Source: a virus. From it: a stretch of DNA of 22,963 bases. A program made the translations under genes and the position numbers. Shown piece after piece: positions 1-15,774 of the stretch (positions are counted from its first letter, which is position 1; each line of letters opens with the position of its first letter). The stretch lies in the IMG/VR virus record IMGVR_UViG_3300043466_000884, positions 1 to 22,963 of that record. The stretch is one strand, 5' to 3'. The notes beneath the pieces are model-generated. The model worked only from the letters and a program-made list of their open reading frames with translations. It did no database searches and had not been told where the DNA came from.

Positions 1-109
1 GTTCATGGTCAGCCCACTGCGCCACACTCATACGCGGCGGTGGCGTCATCTGCTTCATGGCCTTCGCCATTTGCTCCAGTGCTGCTTCTCTGGTGGCTTG
101 TTCGATCAT
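1..109 (-). CDS. Terminase large subunit, N-terminal fragment (GpA-like)
   Basis: This is the first 36 codons of a gene that runs off the left edge. The readable protein starts MIEQATREAALEQMAKAM and ends in MSVAQWADHE. A short segment of the type S/VAxWAD shortly before the ATPase is typical of the lambda GpA family of large terminases, which cut and pump DNA into the prohead with a Walker ATPase and an RNase H-like nuclease; neither domain is inside the window. The ATG overlaps the TGA of the small terminase gene (ATGA), so the two are translationally coupled, as expected for TerS-TerL. The family call rests on a short motif plus the neighbour and is therefore moderate. Confidence 0.68.
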   Translation of the reverse strand, partial: MIEQATREAALEQMAKAMKQMTPPPRMSVAQWADHE

Positions 110-543
110 ACGATTATCGTCCGACCCTTCTTAGGGCGTCCGACCTTACGCTTGGGCTGTTCGACTACCGCAGTTTCGGCTGGGGCCTCTTCCGACACCG
201 ATCCAGTGCGGACAGGATCAATGCTGGGCTGGTAGTTGGACAATTCCGCCAGTGCTTCGCGGATTGCATTTTCCAAATGGTCCTTTGCCACAACAACATC
301 TGTTTCCGTGGCTAAAATTGGAGCGACTTTTGTAGGCAGGGCCAGAAACTTGGCTTTACAGGCGTGAAGGACGCTTTCCCAAGCCGCCACCACATCATTG
401 GTCATGCAGAGAGTGCCGCGAATCTTGGCGAGTTCCAGTTCTGCGATTTCAGCTTCGGCATTTACCTTGCGGGTTCGTGCCTCGTCATAGGATGAGCCGA
501 TCAGAATCCCACCAGTGGTAGGTTTACGCTGCTGTGCTGTCAC
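106..543 (-). CDS. Terminase small subunit (Nu1-like C-terminal region, AT-hook-like tail)
   Basis: The protein has 145 residues. Residues about 19-100 (YDEARTRKVNAEAEIAEL, then a helix with VVAAWESVLHACKAKFLALP) match the conserved helical part of Nu1-like small terminases, which recognise the packaging site and recruit the large subunit. Lambda Nu1 begins with a winged HTH; here the protein opens directly at the post-HTH segment. An in-frame stop lies about 11 codons upstream, so no such domain is hidden there. Instead the C-terminus holds a basic AT-hook-like core, GRPKKGR (residues 135-141). The start is GTG at 543 with AGGA six bases upstream. The stop overlaps the large terminase start. 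The function is well supported; the DNA-binding role of the tail is inferred. Confidence 0.8.
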   Translation of the reverse strand: MTAQQRKPTTGGILIGSSYDEARTRKVNAEAEIAELELAKIRGTLCMTNDVVAAWESVLHACKAKFLALPTKVAPILATETDVVVAKDHLENAIREALAELSNYQPSIDPVRTGSVSEEAPAETAVVEQPKRKVGRPKKGRTIIV

Positions 544-1040: not shown

Positions 1041-1190
1041 CTAGTTCAATTCAAGCAACCTCGCCAGCATAGGGGTCAGTGGCCTATGGCCAGCTTCAAC
1101 CCGCTGGTAATGACGGGGGCAGATCGCCAATAGTTCGGCGGCTCTCTCTTGCGTTAGGTTGCGCGCCAAGCGCCAAGCTTTGACGTTCAT
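1041..1190 (-). CDS. 49-residue HTH DNA-binding protein (XRE-like), last gene of the cassette
   Basis: The protein begins MNVKAWRLARNLTQERAAEL and continues with CPRHYQRVEAGHRPLT. LTQERAAELL is helix 2 and HYQRVEAG the recognition-helix segment of the Cro/CI (XRE) HTH fold; almost nothing else is present, so it is a minimal HTH. The start at 1190 is chosen because GGGGGGT lies just upstream and the ATG overlaps the stop of the gene before it (ATGA). It is last in an operon of small unknown genes and is followed by a terminator. A self-regulator of that operon is the natural guess; its resemblance to aca repressors is by position and fold only. Confidence 0.75.
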   Translation of the reverse strand: MNVKAWRLARNLTQERAAELLAICPRHYQRVEAGHRPLTPMLARLLELN

Positions 1191-2315: not shown

Positions 2316-2408
2316 TTAAAATTGCGGGCCGAATATAAAGGCATCAAGCGCAAGCGCGGCCAGTATGTAAAGGCAGAATAGCGCCACATGGGTTGCGGAT
2401 TGTTTCAT
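2316..2408 (-). CDS. 30-residue single-span membrane peptide
   Basis: This very short gene encodes MKQSATHVALFCLYILAALA followed by LDAFIFGPQF. Residues about 7-26 form one hydrophobic helix, so a small inner-membrane protein is expected. The ATG at 2408 overlaps the TGA of the gene upstream (ATGA), and AGGGGAAG precedes it at a proper distance. The stop is followed, about 20 bases on, by the ribosome binding site of the 139-residue gene. Its function is unknown; possibilities include a toxin, a superinfection factor or a regulator of a membrane protein. Confidence 0.6.
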   Translation of the reverse strand: MKQSATHVALFCLYILAALALDAFIFGPQF

Positions 2409-2614
2409 GCCGCTTCCCCTTGTTCGTCTAATGACTCAAATAAGCCAGCGGCAGCGGCTAACATATCGGCAGCGACTTTCGCGGCGGCAGCGCGGCTTGC
2501 GAATATATCACCTTGAATAAACTTAGGCGTTCCGTTGGCACGAATTAAATAAACTTGATAGCCAGTAACGCCGTTATGGCATTCGACCTTATCAATTTCG
2601 GTTACATAAAACAT
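2405..2614 (-). CDS. Small protein of unknown function, 69 residues, first gene of the cassette
   Basis: The protein starts MFYVTEIDKVECHNGVTGYQ and reads as a few beta strands (YQVYLIRANGTPKFIQGDIF) followed by an Ala-rich helix (ASRAAAAKVAADMLAAAAGL) and an acidic tail. The fold resembles small phage proteins with a strand-strand-helix layout, but I cannot name a family. The reading frame is open further upstream; 2614 is chosen because GAGGT lies about eight bases before this ATG, while the earlier candidates have no binding site. It is the promoter-proximal gene of the leftward cassette and overlaps the next start as ATGA. Confidence 0.6.
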   Translation of the reverse strand: MFYVTEIDKVECHNGVTGYQVYLIRANGTPKFIQGDIFASRAAAAKVAADMLAAAAGLFESLDEQGEAA

Positions 2615-2636
2615 ATTGTTACACCTCATATTAAAA

Positions 2637-2655
2637 TCGGTTCCGTTCGGTTCCG
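2637..2655. repeat. Tandem 9-bp repeat, candidate operator
   Basis: TCGGTTCCG occurs at 2637-2645 and again at 2647-2655, a spacing of exactly one helical turn, 22 bases ahead of the start codon of the first cassette gene. The position suits a repressor or activator site acting on the cassette. Confidence 0.5.
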
Positions 2656-2751
2656 ATAGGCCAGTCACTAGCACGGCCACGGGCCGCGTCAATAAAAAAA
2701 CGACATGAACCCAAAAAAAAACGCAAGCCCAACCGCTGGCCGTGGCCCCCC

Positions 2752-2759
2752 TATATATA
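2752..2759 (-). promoter_or_regulatory. Candidate -10 element of the cassette promoter
   Basis: TATATATA on the minus strand is the most -10-like element upstream of the cassette. The best-spaced -35 (TTAATC, 16 bases upstream) is weak, which would suit an activated or tightly regulated promoter. It is a candidate only. Confidence 0.35.
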
Positions 2760-2785
2760 AAGCCTAAAATCAAGGGATTAACGGG

Positions 2786-2839
2786 GCGAAACGCAATAAA
2801 GTTTCGCTTGGCTTTACGATAATTGCGTCAACGCAATAA
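2786..2839. repeat. CGCAATAA inverted-repeat pair
   Basis: CGCAATAA occurs at 2792-2799 and 2832-2839. The first copy sits within GCGAAAC (2786-2792) and GTTTCGC (2801-2807), a 7-bp inverted repeat. The second forms ATTGCGT-CA-ACGCAAT (2822-2837). They are the same octamer as the sites to the right, in opposite orientation. Confidence 0.65.
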
Positions 2840-2880
2840 AGTTGCGCGTCGTTGTAATATTCTTGCCGATAGGTTTTTGA

Positions 2881-2959
2881 TTATTGCGCAAAACGGCTTG
2901 GACACGCAACATTATTGCGCAAGAGCAACATTATTGCGCGATTGAGCAATATTATTGCG
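2881..2959. repeat. TTATTGCG iterons with three dyad-symmetric 13-mers
   Basis: TTATTGCG is found at 2881, 2912, 2931 and 2952. The last three lie within dyads GCAAyATTATTGC at 2906-2918, 2925-2937 and 2946-2958; the third copy is perfectly symmetric around its central base. The dyads are 19 and 21 bp apart, roughly two helical turns, so dimers would bind on one face of the DNA. This looks like a multi-site operator or an iteron-type origin. Confidence 0.75.
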
Positions 2960-2990
2960 TTCACGGGTCTAAAAAATGACCCCTCCCCGG

Positions 2991-3052
2991 TTTATGGAGC
3001 AAAAATTACCCCCATACGATTTATGGGCCAAAAATCCCCCATACGATTTATG
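2991..3052. repeat. Direct repeats, 17-bp unit at 27-bp spacing
   Basis: CCCCCATACGATTTATG is present at 3009-3025 and 3036-3052, exactly 27 bp apart. A degenerate third copy (TTTATG at 2991-2996) precedes them. Each is followed by a related CAAAAATT-like tail. The stop codon of the 64-residue gene lies inside the last copy. Confidence 0.75.
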
Positions 3053-3242
3053 AAGCAATTTTCTTTACGCCCAGCGCCTTCGCGCATTCGCCGGACCAGA
3101 ACGCCCAATCGTAAATCAATCCCTCATCATCGTAACGATCTAATCCCTCTTTGGCAGCGTTATCCAGCAGCACCATTAGAGCGTTCAACAGGTCAGCAGC
3201 AAACAGATGCTTCGGACCTTCGTGTTCGATATTGTCGTTCAT
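3048..3242 (-). CDS. Small acidic protein of unknown function, 64 residues
   Basis: The protein opens MNDNIEHEGPKHLFAADLLN and reads as a mostly helical, acidic polypeptide ending ECAKALGVKKIAS. No family is recognised. The ATG at 3242 overlaps the TGA of the methyltransferase gene (ATGA) and is preferred over a TTG 12 bases upstream. The gene is the last in a four-gene leftward unit and ends within the direct repeats, without an obvious terminator. Confidence 0.6.
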   Translation of the reverse strand: MNDNIEHEGPKHLFAADLLNALMVLLDNAAKEGLDRYDDEGLIYDWAFWSGECAKALGVKKIAS

Positions 3243-4739: not shown

Positions 4740-4907
4740 GTGGACAAGTGGACAACACCTATAGGTGTGTTGTCCTGTCCGTCCACCCCTGCCTACCTTG
4801 CCCCTACCTTGTCCACCTTCTTGTCTACCCCTATCTAAAAACCGCAGAAAAGCGTCAGTTTAGGTGGACAAGTTCTGTTTTGTCCACCCTTGTCCACCCT
4901 TGTCCAC
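4740..4907. repeat. GTGGACAA/TTGTCCAC repeat cluster
   Basis: The octamer GTGGACAA occurs in tandem at 4740-4747 and 4748-4755 and again at 4864-4871. Its complement TTGTCCAC occurs at 4809-4816 and three times at a 10-bp period (4880, 4890, 4900), with a near copy at 4821-4828. The cluster fills the gap between the primase-helicase stop and the next promoter. An iteron array for the replication protein encoded next door is an attractive reading, but unproved. Confidence 0.75.
4750..4775. repeat. Palindrome within the repeat cluster
   Basis: ACACCTATAGGTGT (4755-4768) is a perfect 14-bp palindrome. It is flanked by GGACAA and TTGTCC, so the dyad spans 26 bases with a two-base interruption. 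There is no following T-run, so it is not a normal terminator; a protein-binding site or cruciform is more likely. Confidence 0.7.
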
Positions 4908-4910
4908 CCC

Positions 4911-6929
4911 CTATTTATAGTCACTTCTTGAAATCATCATGGACGAGGCATTTTCAGGGCAAATTACCACCCATCCATGCTCATGTCTGCTCACCATTTC
5001 GCTCACAATAAGCGTCCCAATCAGCCTATTGGTTTGGCTCTCCTGACACATCTTCTTTGCCGCATCTTCATTCTTAGCCAAGCCCTCTTTCATGATATGA
5101 TCTATCAATGCAGAGCGAGACAGATACGGCATGTCATCCCTGACTTCACACCCAGCCTTATGCCAAGCACCATCAAATATCTTGAAGTTGCTTTTGTGCT
5201 TTGCCTCCTTGCGTGTCTCAGGCGGAGCCTCAGTTTGCATTATAACCGCACTGGACACTTGCTCACCATCCTCATCGAACCAGCCGTTGATCTGTACAAG
5301 TTCCAGTACAGCATAGACAGGCTTTGCCTCTTCGGCATCCTTGGACTTGCGCTGGACGATCTGGATGGGTCCGTCACCCTTGGCTGGGACAACACTGATC
5401 TCGATTTCAAGAGCGCCCTTCCAAGCTGACGATCCACGCGCACGATGCTGTGCCTCATCTGACACGCCAGTGTGATGGACAAGGATGATGCTGCAACCAA
5501 ACTCACGCATAAGCGCAGCACAGGCATCGATCATTGTTTTGGCATCTTGTGCGCTGTTCTCGTCGCCTGACAGGAACCTGTGCAGGGTATCGACCACAAT
5601 AACGCTGGGTGGATGCGGTAGCGCCCTGATGGCCTCTACAACCTTCATGTAGCCTTCAGGCGTGTTCAGATCGCAGCCAGCCTTGGACAGCCACATATTG
5701 ACGCTACTGACGCCGTGATGCTGTTTCCATGCCGAGATACGCGAACGCAGACCGTGATGTCCCTCACCAGCCAAATAGACCACTGTGCCGTTCTTAACCC
5801 TGTGTCCGTTCCAATCGGTTAGGCTGGAAGCTATGTGTAGACACCAATCAAGCGCCACAAAGGTCTTGCCGCCACCTGACGGCCCGTGAATCATGATAAG
5901 GGCATCATCCTGTATCCAGTTCTTGACCATCCATTTGATAGGGGCTGGCTTAGTGCAGAACTCGTCGGCTGGGATGAGCCAATCGGAAACAGGCGGAATC
6001 AGCAGGACCGAGAGATCGCCACCCAAGGCAACATAATCGTTCGCATCGCCTTGGAAGGGTGGCGTTATGGTCCGCGCACCAAACTTGGCTGATGCTTGGT
6101 CAGCATATTTCTGACCTGTGTTGGACGCATCATTGTCCGCCACAATGACGATTTCTTGGGTTGGGCCGTATTTGTCCCGCGCTGTCCCAGTGACGGGAAC
6201 GAGGTTTGATGCGGAATATGCCACAATGCACGGGCGGCCTGTTACCTGATAGATGGTGGCCGCTGTTGCGTAGCCCTCAGCTACATAAAGAACGCCGGGT
6301 TCGTCCATTGTCCCGACCATCCAAGAGCAGCCGCCTGTCTGTCCGCCAGCGTGGTATAACTTGCCACCCTCACGATCTATGTATTGCAGAGAGGATAATT
6401 TCCCGTTGGGGCTGAACAAGGGAACCACCAGCCGTCCGTCGCCCGTGACCCTAGCGCCATTGACGCCAATCCCTTTGCGGGAAAGATATGGGTGATCTGG
6501 ATGTGCAGCGGTTGCCTCTGACCAAATCTTCTCGACGGTGTTTGATGCCACCTCCCGCGACTTGGCTAGTTCGATGTCCCGCGCTGCCTTAGCCTCTGAC
6601 ATGCGACGGACATTTGCCATCTCTTCGGATGGCGTCAGCTTACGGCCAACGTCCGCCCTCCATGTCATTTCCATGCCAGCCCTCCAGCAGCCGAAGCGGC
6701 CAGCGGGAACACCATCGCCATAGGCAATGTACCAGCCGGACTTATCGTGTCCGCCCTTGCCTTTGGTTTCGGAGTTGAAGCGGTGCATTTTGCCATCAAG
6801 GACAATGTCCTTTGGCGGTGTTATGCCACTATTCTCTATGGCGTCACGAAGCTGTAGTTCCGGTGGGTCTGCTTTAATCTCTGCTGGCGGTGACCATGAG
6901 CCGCCCAGAATGTTTGTTAGATCAGCCAT
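4911..6929 (-). CDS. Primase-helicase: TOPRIM domain plus RepA/RecA-fold (AAA_25) ATPase
   Basis: This 672-residue replication protein should prime and unwind DNA at the phage fork. Residues about 60-90 form the N-terminal part often seen in TOPRIM phage primases (GWYIAYGDG, RFGCWR). The TOPRIM core spans about 210-300, with catalytic E218 (VAEGYAT) and the acidic pair in ADNDAS (265-267). The ATPase follows, with Walker A GPSGGGKT (349-356), Walker B VIVVDTLH (443-450), the LVHHTG sensor (483-488) and RGSSAWKGA. The C-terminal 100 residues look like an accessory HTH-type domain. No Cys4 zinc finger is seen. GGGGAA precedes the ATG, which overlaps the stop of the small HTH gene. The gene is followed by the GTGGACAA repeats. 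Confidence 0.88.
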   Translation of the reverse strand: MADLTNILGGSWSPPAEIKADPPELQLRDAIENSGITPPKDIVLDGKMHRFNSETKGKGGHDKSGWYIAYGDGVPAGRFGCWRAGMEMTWRADVGRKLTPSEEMANVRRMSEAKAARDIELAKSREVASNTVEKIWSEATAAHPDHPYLSRKGIGVNGARVTGDGRLVVPLFSPNGKLSSLQYIDREGGKLYHAGGQTGGCSWMVGTMDEPGVLYVAEGYATAATIYQVTGRPCIVAYSASNLVPVTGTARDKYGPTQEIVIVADNDASNTGQKYADQASAKFGARTITPPFQGDANDYVALGGDLSVLLIPPVSDWLIPADEFCTKPAPIKWMVKNWIQDDALIMIHGPSGGGKTFVALDWCLHIASSLTDWNGHRVKNGTVVYLAGEGHHGLRSRISAWKQHHGVSSVNMWLSKAGCDLNTPEGYMKVVEAIRALPHPPSVIVVDTLHRFLSGDENSAQDAKTMIDACAALMREFGCSIILVHHTGVSDEAQHRARGSSAWKGALEIEISVVPAKGDGPIQIVQRKSKDAEEAKPVYAVLELVQINGWFDEDGEQVSSAVIMQTEAPPETRKEAKHKSNFKIFDGAWHKAGCEVRDDMPYLSRSALIDHIMKEGLAKNEDAAKKMCQESQTNRLIGTLIVSEMVSRHEHGWVVICPENASSMMISRSDYK

Positions 6930-7105
6930 TATTCCCCTTCCCCAATCAGATAACGCGCCAACCTATTAAGCGTGTCAATCTTTGGGTTATCTTCTTTACC
7001 ATCCCTTATACGGGTAACGGTGTTGACATGCAGACCAGTGCGTTCCGCCACAACCTTTGGGCGTCTATCTAACAGCCCTTCTTTAATCCAGTTTATTTCA
7101 ACCAC
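6929..7105 (-). CDS. Small Cro/XRE-like HTH regulator, 58 residues
   Basis: Starting at a GTG (7105) with AGGAG seven bases upstream, the protein reads MVEINWIKEGLLDRRPKVVA, then ERTGLHVNTVTRIRDGKEDN, then a helix ending RLARYLIGEGE. PKVVAERTGLHVNTVTRIRDG is a textbook helix-turn-helix, and the length matches Cro-type repressors. Its TAA overlaps the ATG of the primase-helicase (TAATG), so the two are made together. It lies directly beside the divergent early control region, which holds an inverted repeat suited to a dimeric repressor. It probably regulates its own operon and the rightward early genes; this is inferred. Confidence 0.75.
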   Translation of the reverse strand: MVEINWIKEGLLDRRPKVVAERTGLHVNTVTRIRDGKEDNPKIDTLNRLARYLIGEGE

Positions 7106-14598: not shown

Positions 14599-15774
14599 TT
14601 ATACCTCTTCTAACATCTCAGTTGTAATCATTACGCGCCCTACAGCGCCGTACTTTTTATGGTATGTTATAGCCCAAGCCGCACGATCTGCAATCCATCC
14701 GCCACGCGCAGCATAGGCATCCCTAGCAGCTAAGGTTGGATGCTGCACCACCGTTACGCCGTTATATTCTTTCTCATCCCTGTGGTGACGGTGGCCGCAG
14801 TGTATCTCGCGCCGGGTAGTGCGGCCCCACTCTTGCGGGAACTGTGCGGCGAACAGCAGCGGCAGGCTTTCGTTCTTAACCTTGTGGCCGTGGTGGATGC
14901 CTAGCATGGTGTTGCCCCATTCAAAGACATAGAATGGCAACACGCTGTCATTGACAGTAACGCGAGGCTCTTCTTCGTAATGCACAGCGAACAGGTCTGA
15001 CAGCCATCCTGCGCTTTCCTCGTCGTGGTTTCCCTCAGCGATAATCAAGCGCACCTCTTGATGGCGTTGCAAGCATATCGCCACCAATGAGCGGATGATG
15101 CGGATCGCGGAGCGGCGTATCTTGGGGAAGCGGCTGTCGGCATCCAGAACGTGCTTTGAGGCTGGCGTTACTGGCGTCTTGCCGTCCGTATGCAAGAAGT
15201 CGCCTTGGATATTGAGCACTGCTGTGTGTGCATTTGGGCTTTGATTGACCATCTGTACCAGCGCAGCCAGAATCGTTTTCTCTGCGATGGAAATGCTCCA
15301 ATCGCTGCCGCCCTCTTTGTGCCACGCCAACATGCCAAGGTGGTAATCGGTAAAGGTGTAAAGGTTGCACAGATGCTCCTCAGAGCCTTCTGGGGCGACG
15401 ATAACACTTGCTGGCAGTATTTCGTCCTTGAAGCCATCTATGGCCTCTTTCATGGCGTCCACCAGAGCCTGATGGCTTAGTGACGCCTTGACCCACTGTC
15501 CGGCTGGCTTGCCTTCAGCGTTATAATAGGTGCTGACGCCCTTGGCTACATATCCATCAGGGACGGGCCTAGTGAAGTCATGCTCTGGGGCATATCCCTT
15601 CTTTGCAGCCTTTTTCTTGACGGCAAGATAAGTCTCGCTTGCGCCGCCAATGTTCATGCCCAATTCAACGGACGCCGCCCTAGCACTGCCAAGACGTTCT
15701 ATGGCTTCAAGGGTTTCCCTCTGACGAGGCGTACAATAGTTGTACAGGTTCTCGTCTATTTTTAATGGAGTCAT
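14599..15774 (-). CDS. Calcineurin-like metallophosphoesterase with N-terminal HTH
   Basis: This 391-residue protein has an N-terminal HTH segment (residues about 14-60, TPRQRETLEAIERLGSARAA) followed by a metallophosphoesterase domain with all metal-binding signatures: D143-x-H145, GD (191-192), GNHDE (248-252), HHGH (294-297) and GHRHH (327-330). Such domains hydrolyse phosphodiesters or phosphomonoesters with two metal ions. Phage copies fused to an HTH are often found near structural genes; the substrate is unknown, with nucleic acid being plausible because of the HTH. The gene sits in the lysis section of the late operon, between a membrane protein and DUF3310. Confidence 0.85.
   Translation of the reverse strand: MTPLKIDENLYNYCTPRQRETLEAIERLGSARAASVELGMNIGGASETYLAVKKKAAKKGYAPEHDFTRPVPDGYVAKGVSTYYNAEGKPAGQWVKASLSHQALVDAMKEAIDGFKDEILPASVIVAPEGSEEHLCNLYTFTDYHLGMLAWHKEGGSDWSISIAEKTILAALVQMVNQSPNAHTAVLNIQGDFLHTDGKTPVTPASKHVLDADSRFPKIRRSAIRIIRSLVAICLQRHQEVRLIIAEGNHDEESAGWLSDLFAVHYEEEPRVTVNDSVLPFYVFEWGNTMLGIHHGHKVKNESLPLLFAAQFPQEWGRTTRREIHCGHRHHRDEKEYNGVTVVQHPTLAARDAYAARGGWIADRAAWAITYHKKYGAVGRVMITTEMLEEV

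Follow-up and report, generated by a model that had tools for sequence, protein, structure and literature searches.

Results

The window analyzed here, i.e. the whole stretch of DNA under study, is a complete IMG/VR virus record of 22,963 bp and represents a partial genome of a tailed phage. Its leftward gene order runs HTH58, primase/helicase and further genes to Dam and a conserved small gene (3048-3242, minus strand), then a 433-bp gap, small genes (the first at 2405-2614, minus strand), HTH49, which is an XRE-type HTH protein (1041-1190, minus strand), and the terminase small subunit gene, terS (phrog_57; 106-543, minus strand). The second HTH protein of the window, HTH58, is encoded at 6929-7105. 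The gap (2615-3047) is non-coding and precedes the leftward operon with terS at its end; in the relative L018, the next gene after terS encodes a lambda gpA-like large terminase (phrog_15). Based on the primase, the closest cultured relatives are Salicola phage CGphi29 (57%), Idiomarinaceae phage 1N2-2 and Alteromonas phages PB15 and XX1924. Two further repeat sets occur in the window, i.e. three perfect tandem copies of TTGTCCACCC right after the primase-helicase gene (4880-4909) and short tandem repeats of GGGCCAAGGGC (910-970) that lie in the 500 bp separating HTH49 from terS and represent a candidate packaging region.

The 433-bp gap contains three dyad-symmetric 13-mers (GCAAYATTATTGC), at least three degenerate copies and one half-site. 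The 13-mers at 2906-2918 and 2925-2937 (both GCAACATTATTGC) each have one central C/A mismatch, that at 2946-2958 (GCAATATTATTGC) is a perfect dyad, and their start positions are 19 and 21 bp apart. The half-site ATTATTGCGCAA is located at 2880-2891 (plus strand), and degenerate copies are present at 2854-2866 (GTAATATTCTTGC, plus strand, two mismatches), 2833-2845 (GCAACTTTATTGC, minus strand, one mismatch) and 2793-2805 (GAAACTTTATTGC, minus strand, two mismatches), the last lying closest to the TATATATA box described below. An earlier note on this DNA had reported the three dyads together with TTATTGCG at 2881 and, in reverse orientation, CGCAATAAAGTTTCG at 2792 and CGCAATAAAGTTGCG at 2832, all of which we find, and had considered chance a poor explanation. 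Consistent with this, the exact consensus is present three times in the 433-bp region, with a maximum of zero in 5000 dinucleotide shuffles, and GCAAN5TTGC is present four times versus a shuffle mean of 0.026; no exact copy of the 13-mer occurs in the window outside the gap. The proposed spacing by two helical turns holds for the 19 and 21 bp of the window, but is not general, with spacings across lineages ranging from 13 to 62. A 10.5-bp periodicity of dyad spacings across lineages is not significant (p 0.38), a value of p 0.006 being reached solely in a post hoc subset. The strict phasing suggested in the same note is thus not supported across lineages.

The TATATATA box (2752-2759), kept in most of the group, is a candidate -10 element of an activator-dependent leftward promoter; the window dyads lie 40-200 bp upstream of it, at distances that differ among relatives. 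Also present is a pair of similar GC-rich dyads at a distance of about 60 bp, a proximal copy (2675-2688) pairing with a distal copy (2734-2747) that adjoins TATATATA. A candidate leftward promoter, TTGACG-N16-TAGTGA (2665-2692, minus strand), has a GC-rich dyad in its spacer, and in most relatives TTGACR with a spacer dyad is found again at 67-71 bp from TATATA; scanning this region of the window for the sigma-70 consensus gave no match, and TTGACG-N16-TAGTGA was not called as a promoter. The sequence of the GC-rich dyads varies in relatives (CGGCCAATGGCCG, CGACATAACGTCG, GTTCAATGAAC) and the two copies tend to covary, as if the specificity of a repressor had been switched. A second repeat family beside the array consists of three direct repeats, each about 28 bp long, with the core CATACGATTTATGG (2972-3056). 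This 28-bp repeat (CCCCCATACGATTTATGGGCCAAAAATT), of which most group members have 2-5 copies, is more constant than the 13-mers, since it is present also in array-less relatives.

A protein search yielded 80 relatives, and 13 stretches came from a repeat search, in part from the same contigs. Among the 25 group members with a readable gap, the window included, 19 have the array at the syntenic place, i.e. at least one exact GCAAYAWTRTTGC is present in 18 and a one-mismatch copy in one, with no dyad in the remaining six; dyad number, degenerate copies counted, varies from 0 to 6 and spacing varies too. Conservation in relatives, proposed earlier as a check, is therefore observed for position, but not for phasing or copy number. 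The loss of the repeats from close relatives that retain the flanking genes, named in advance as counter-evidence, does occur. The gap of L099 is shorter and dyad-free, despite HTH49 being 94% and a neighboring gene 96% identical, and L100, likewise a close relative, has no array. These losses imply that the array is accessory and inessential to the region, and dispensable in these phages, but not that it is no binding site. A DNA search of cultured phages using the region gave no match, the array was not found in cultured CGphi29, 1N2-2, PB15 or sampled alphaproteobacterial phages, and none of the phage papers searched contained the strings of the 13-mer.

Pooling of the phage sites extends the consensus to 17 bp (RCGCAAYAWTRTTGCGY), with C at position -1 in 71% of the sites, including those of unrelated phages, and T in only 4%. 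The half-sites vary independently (CC 8, CT 32 and TT 13, versus 10.9, 26.3 and 15.9 expected), and mismatched C/A dyads are found in both orientations. Such free combination of half-sites, along with mismatches in either orientation, argues for a dimer reading double-stranded DNA rather than for an RNA hairpin. The prediction that each 13-mer comprises two half-sites for a dimer, in the manner of phage operators, is supported by the independence of the half-sites and by the positional conservation of the array. The same core is abundant in Bacteroidota genomes, where T is present at -1 in 85% and CobW, FUR-family and TonB-receptor genes are nearby; in a mostly Bacteroidota set (L111-L228), paired TGCAACAWTGTTGCA lie about 24 bp apart by CobW, FUR-family, MerC and TonB-receptor genes. 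These sites are presumably Zur boxes, with a specificity differing from that of the phage sites.

A scan of viral contigs for two dyads at a gap of 3-33 returned 26 stretches, versus two for a scrambled dyad, and a second scan at a gap of 34-64, on a partly held-out set, returned 19; protein-coding repeats were set aside before clusters were placed relative to genes. Distances of 0.1-2.4 kb separate clusters from the downstream terS/terL in phages with TerL families phrog_979, 38, 2/31467, 9 and 15, i.e. in L006/L233 (phrog_979), L007/L009 (phrog_38, with an antiterminator-like gene in between), L008/L014 and L232/L234/L239/L257/L267/L299/L315/L328 (phrog_2-type), L229 and L285 (phrog_9-type), and L266 and the Enhydrobacter MAG contig L254 (phrog_15-type). 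In L007 (8398-9078) the antiterminator-like gene (phrog_6386) has the array on one side and the terminase genes on the other. In L274/L275 the array is right upstream of the major capsid gene, in L282/L295 arrays are located within the head operon, that of L295 lying between an HNH gene and head closure, and in L015, L230, L240 and L262 no terminase was recognized near the array. Several arrays sit between divergent operons. In long contigs a terminase gene follows within 2.5 kb of the array in seven of nine (binomial about 1e-7, with an assumed background of 2.5/40 and with lineages of the same TerL type not fully independent). The terminase association was spotted after the first scan, and a fairer test of it comes from the second scan and from the long contigs; IMG/VR calling favors contigs with hallmark genes, but the long contigs nevertheless give the same picture.

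The 44-kb phage G411 carries its main array ahead of terS, with additional sites behind terL and in front of the head-tail adaptor gene. Its major capsid gene is preceded by a site pair, one of which lies within TTGACA-CGCAATAATATTTCGCC-TATATT, a near-perfect sigma-70 promoter with the dyad in its spacer. Dyads overlap a good promoter in few cases only, a clear one being L351 at 9970. For the five lineages tested, the nearest cultured relatives are mainly Rhizobium, Sinorhizobium, Erythrobacter, Roseobacter and Brevundimonas phages, an assignment that is made from relatives alone and from lists that also contain other hosts. By eye, the array segment of L229 (10700-11000) resembles an insertion of ~190 bp before terS when compared with L243 (Sinorhizobium phage NV1.1.1). 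The sequence GTTTCAC/GTGAAAC, one half of parS, flanks the dyads in L229, L282, L285, L295 and L311.

With respect to the binding protein, the two HTH proteins of the window, which were among the candidates of the earlier note, do not consistently co-occur with the array and are not its common binder. Nearly the entire group encodes HTH49, including array-less relatives, and unrelated array phages lack it. In several relatives that carry the array, HTH58 has diverged or could not be detected. When ten array phages, a number of them available as fragments, were compared all against all, no protein family was shared by more than four, the best (4/10) being an HTH/metallophosphoesterase-like protein. 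The window member of this family (14599-15774) combines an HTH-like stretch at its N-terminus with a metallophosphoesterase-like body. The phrog_1924 neighbor was rejected as a common protein, being limited to the window group and the Enhydrobacter contig. A host regulon was likewise not apparent: among 385 alphaproteobacterial genomes, paired dyads are present solely in one Enhydrobacter MAG, on the contig with terminase genes, and the 6.3-Mb Enhydrobacter genome has no further exact site. Single extended sites occur at 28 places in 289 alphaproteobacterial genomes, versus three for a reversed control; these sites (in 21/289 genomes) are scattered, many are coding, and they have no common neighbors. 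A host binder might still act through a small number of its own sites, or through degenerate ones.

Discussion

The combined observations lead us to favor, at about even odds, the reading that the 13-mers are operators of a dimeric late-transcription regulator at the entry to the late operon. On this proposal the sites (consensus RCGCAAYAWTRTTGCGY) would be bound by a homodimeric DNA-binding protein and, being clustered where the late (terminase/head) operon begins, would determine when or how strongly the late genes are transcribed. Sites lie upstream of late, terminase or head genes in independent phages, as expected of late-promoter operators, and in G411 their distribution over late genes is regulon-like. 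The spread of sites over the late transcription units of G411 is the strongest argument for transcriptional control, as opposed to a role in packaging or as an origin. As to the sign of control, an activator would fit the upstream positions in the window group and a repressor the placement of a dyad within the promoter spacer in L351. Since the array phages have no candidate phage protein in common, the regulator could be host-encoded, a weaker suggestion than that of dimer binding. Arguing against late operators are the array-less L099 and L100, the variable distance to TATATATA and the lack of a sigma-70 match in the region, as well as the arrays inside the head operon of L282/L295, the location of packaging sites likewise upstream of terminase genes, the lack of a visible host regulon and the scarcity of dyads overlapping a good promoter.

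The sites of late-gene activators include those of P2 Ogr/Delta and lambda CII. The arrays resemble these in being ahead of late or regulated operons and, in G411, in occurring several times per genome; however, no homologue of such activators was found next to the array, and the array sequence is unlike the direct repeats of CII (TTGC-N6-TTGC).

The location directly upstream of terS of most clusters, including that of L229 immediately before the gene, raises the alternative that the array is an accessory element of a cos/pac packaging initiation site, bound by TerS or by a host architectural protein, which we consider unlikely. G/C-rich tracts beside the clusters in many lineages are in its favor, as is the lambda gpA-like TerL (phrog_15) of the window group, which together with the phrog_57 terS downstream of the repeats recalls the R sites of lambda cosB. 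R sites of the lambda type are, however, not dyads, and the dyad studied here serves phages with unrelated TerS families (phrog_57, phrog_51 and unassigned). Moreover, terS of the window is 2.3 kb from the array, the sites in front of the major capsid gene in L275/L351 and close to the head-closure gene in L295 do not occupy packaging positions, and the long contigs of the group have no common end at the array, which is indirect evidence.

Autoregulation by HTH49, i.e. an array of operators for the phage's own product encoded in the same leftward operon, is a doubtful prospect. HTH49 is kept across the group with a conserved recognition helix, and XRE proteins use such dyads. Cro/CI (XRE, HTH_3) phage operators, e.g. 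those of 434 (ACAA-N6-TTGT) and lambda OR, are a close likeness with respect to clustered short GCAA/TTGC half-site dyads near a promoter, and in L005/L013 the identical 13-mer (GCAATATTATTGC) lies between divergent repressor-type genes. Here, however, the dyads, clustered and non-coding as in such operators, are not beside a repressor gene, their spacing is not fixed, and they recur in unrelated phages with no XRE protein in common; three long array phages have no HTH_3 protein at all. HTH49 is also retained without the array in L036 and L102, as in L099 and L100.

An iteron-type replication origin, the other possibility raised in the earlier note, appears improbable. Dyads and 28-bp direct repeats beside an A-rich stretch could serve as iterons, and in most phages there is a single intergenic repeat cluster per genome; however, the copy number and spacing of the dyads are too variable, regular direct repeats are not found in all replicating relatives given the array-less L099/L100, and G411 has several sites per genome, at late genes. 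GC skew shows no extremum at 2.9 kb, its minimum being near 6.5-7 kb.

RNA hairpins or a TIGR-type guide-RNA array are highly improbable. The relative CGphi29 has a TIGR-TasH locus (PMC12045711) and the region folds well (z -3.7), but good folding is expected of any set of dyads, the half-site and mismatch patterns favor DNA, an Rfam search of the region gave no match, and the dual repeat with 9-nt spacers of TIGR arrays (PMC12045711) is lacking at spacings of 19/21. It is equally hard to credit that the phage sites themselves are Zur (zinc regulator) boxes, since the boxes of Bacteroidota/Betaproteobacteria, as inferred from neighboring genes, share the paired core, but have a T...A flank and cellular metal genes, in contrast to the C...G flank of the phage sites.

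Returning to late operators, a shared control protein, possibly a host product, may lie behind the dyads in otherwise unrelated phages. More tentatively, unrelated phages, mostly of alphaproteobacterial type, might have independently gained one 17-bp operator array that is read by a conserved host protein. If so, the array would represent a host-dependent switch of late gene expression that these phages have in common. As a cis-element of unrelated phages with no phage protein in common, it would expose a host factor for late transcription or packaging, for which the dyad provides a sequence bait, as well as being a simple sequence marker of late operons in uncultured phages.
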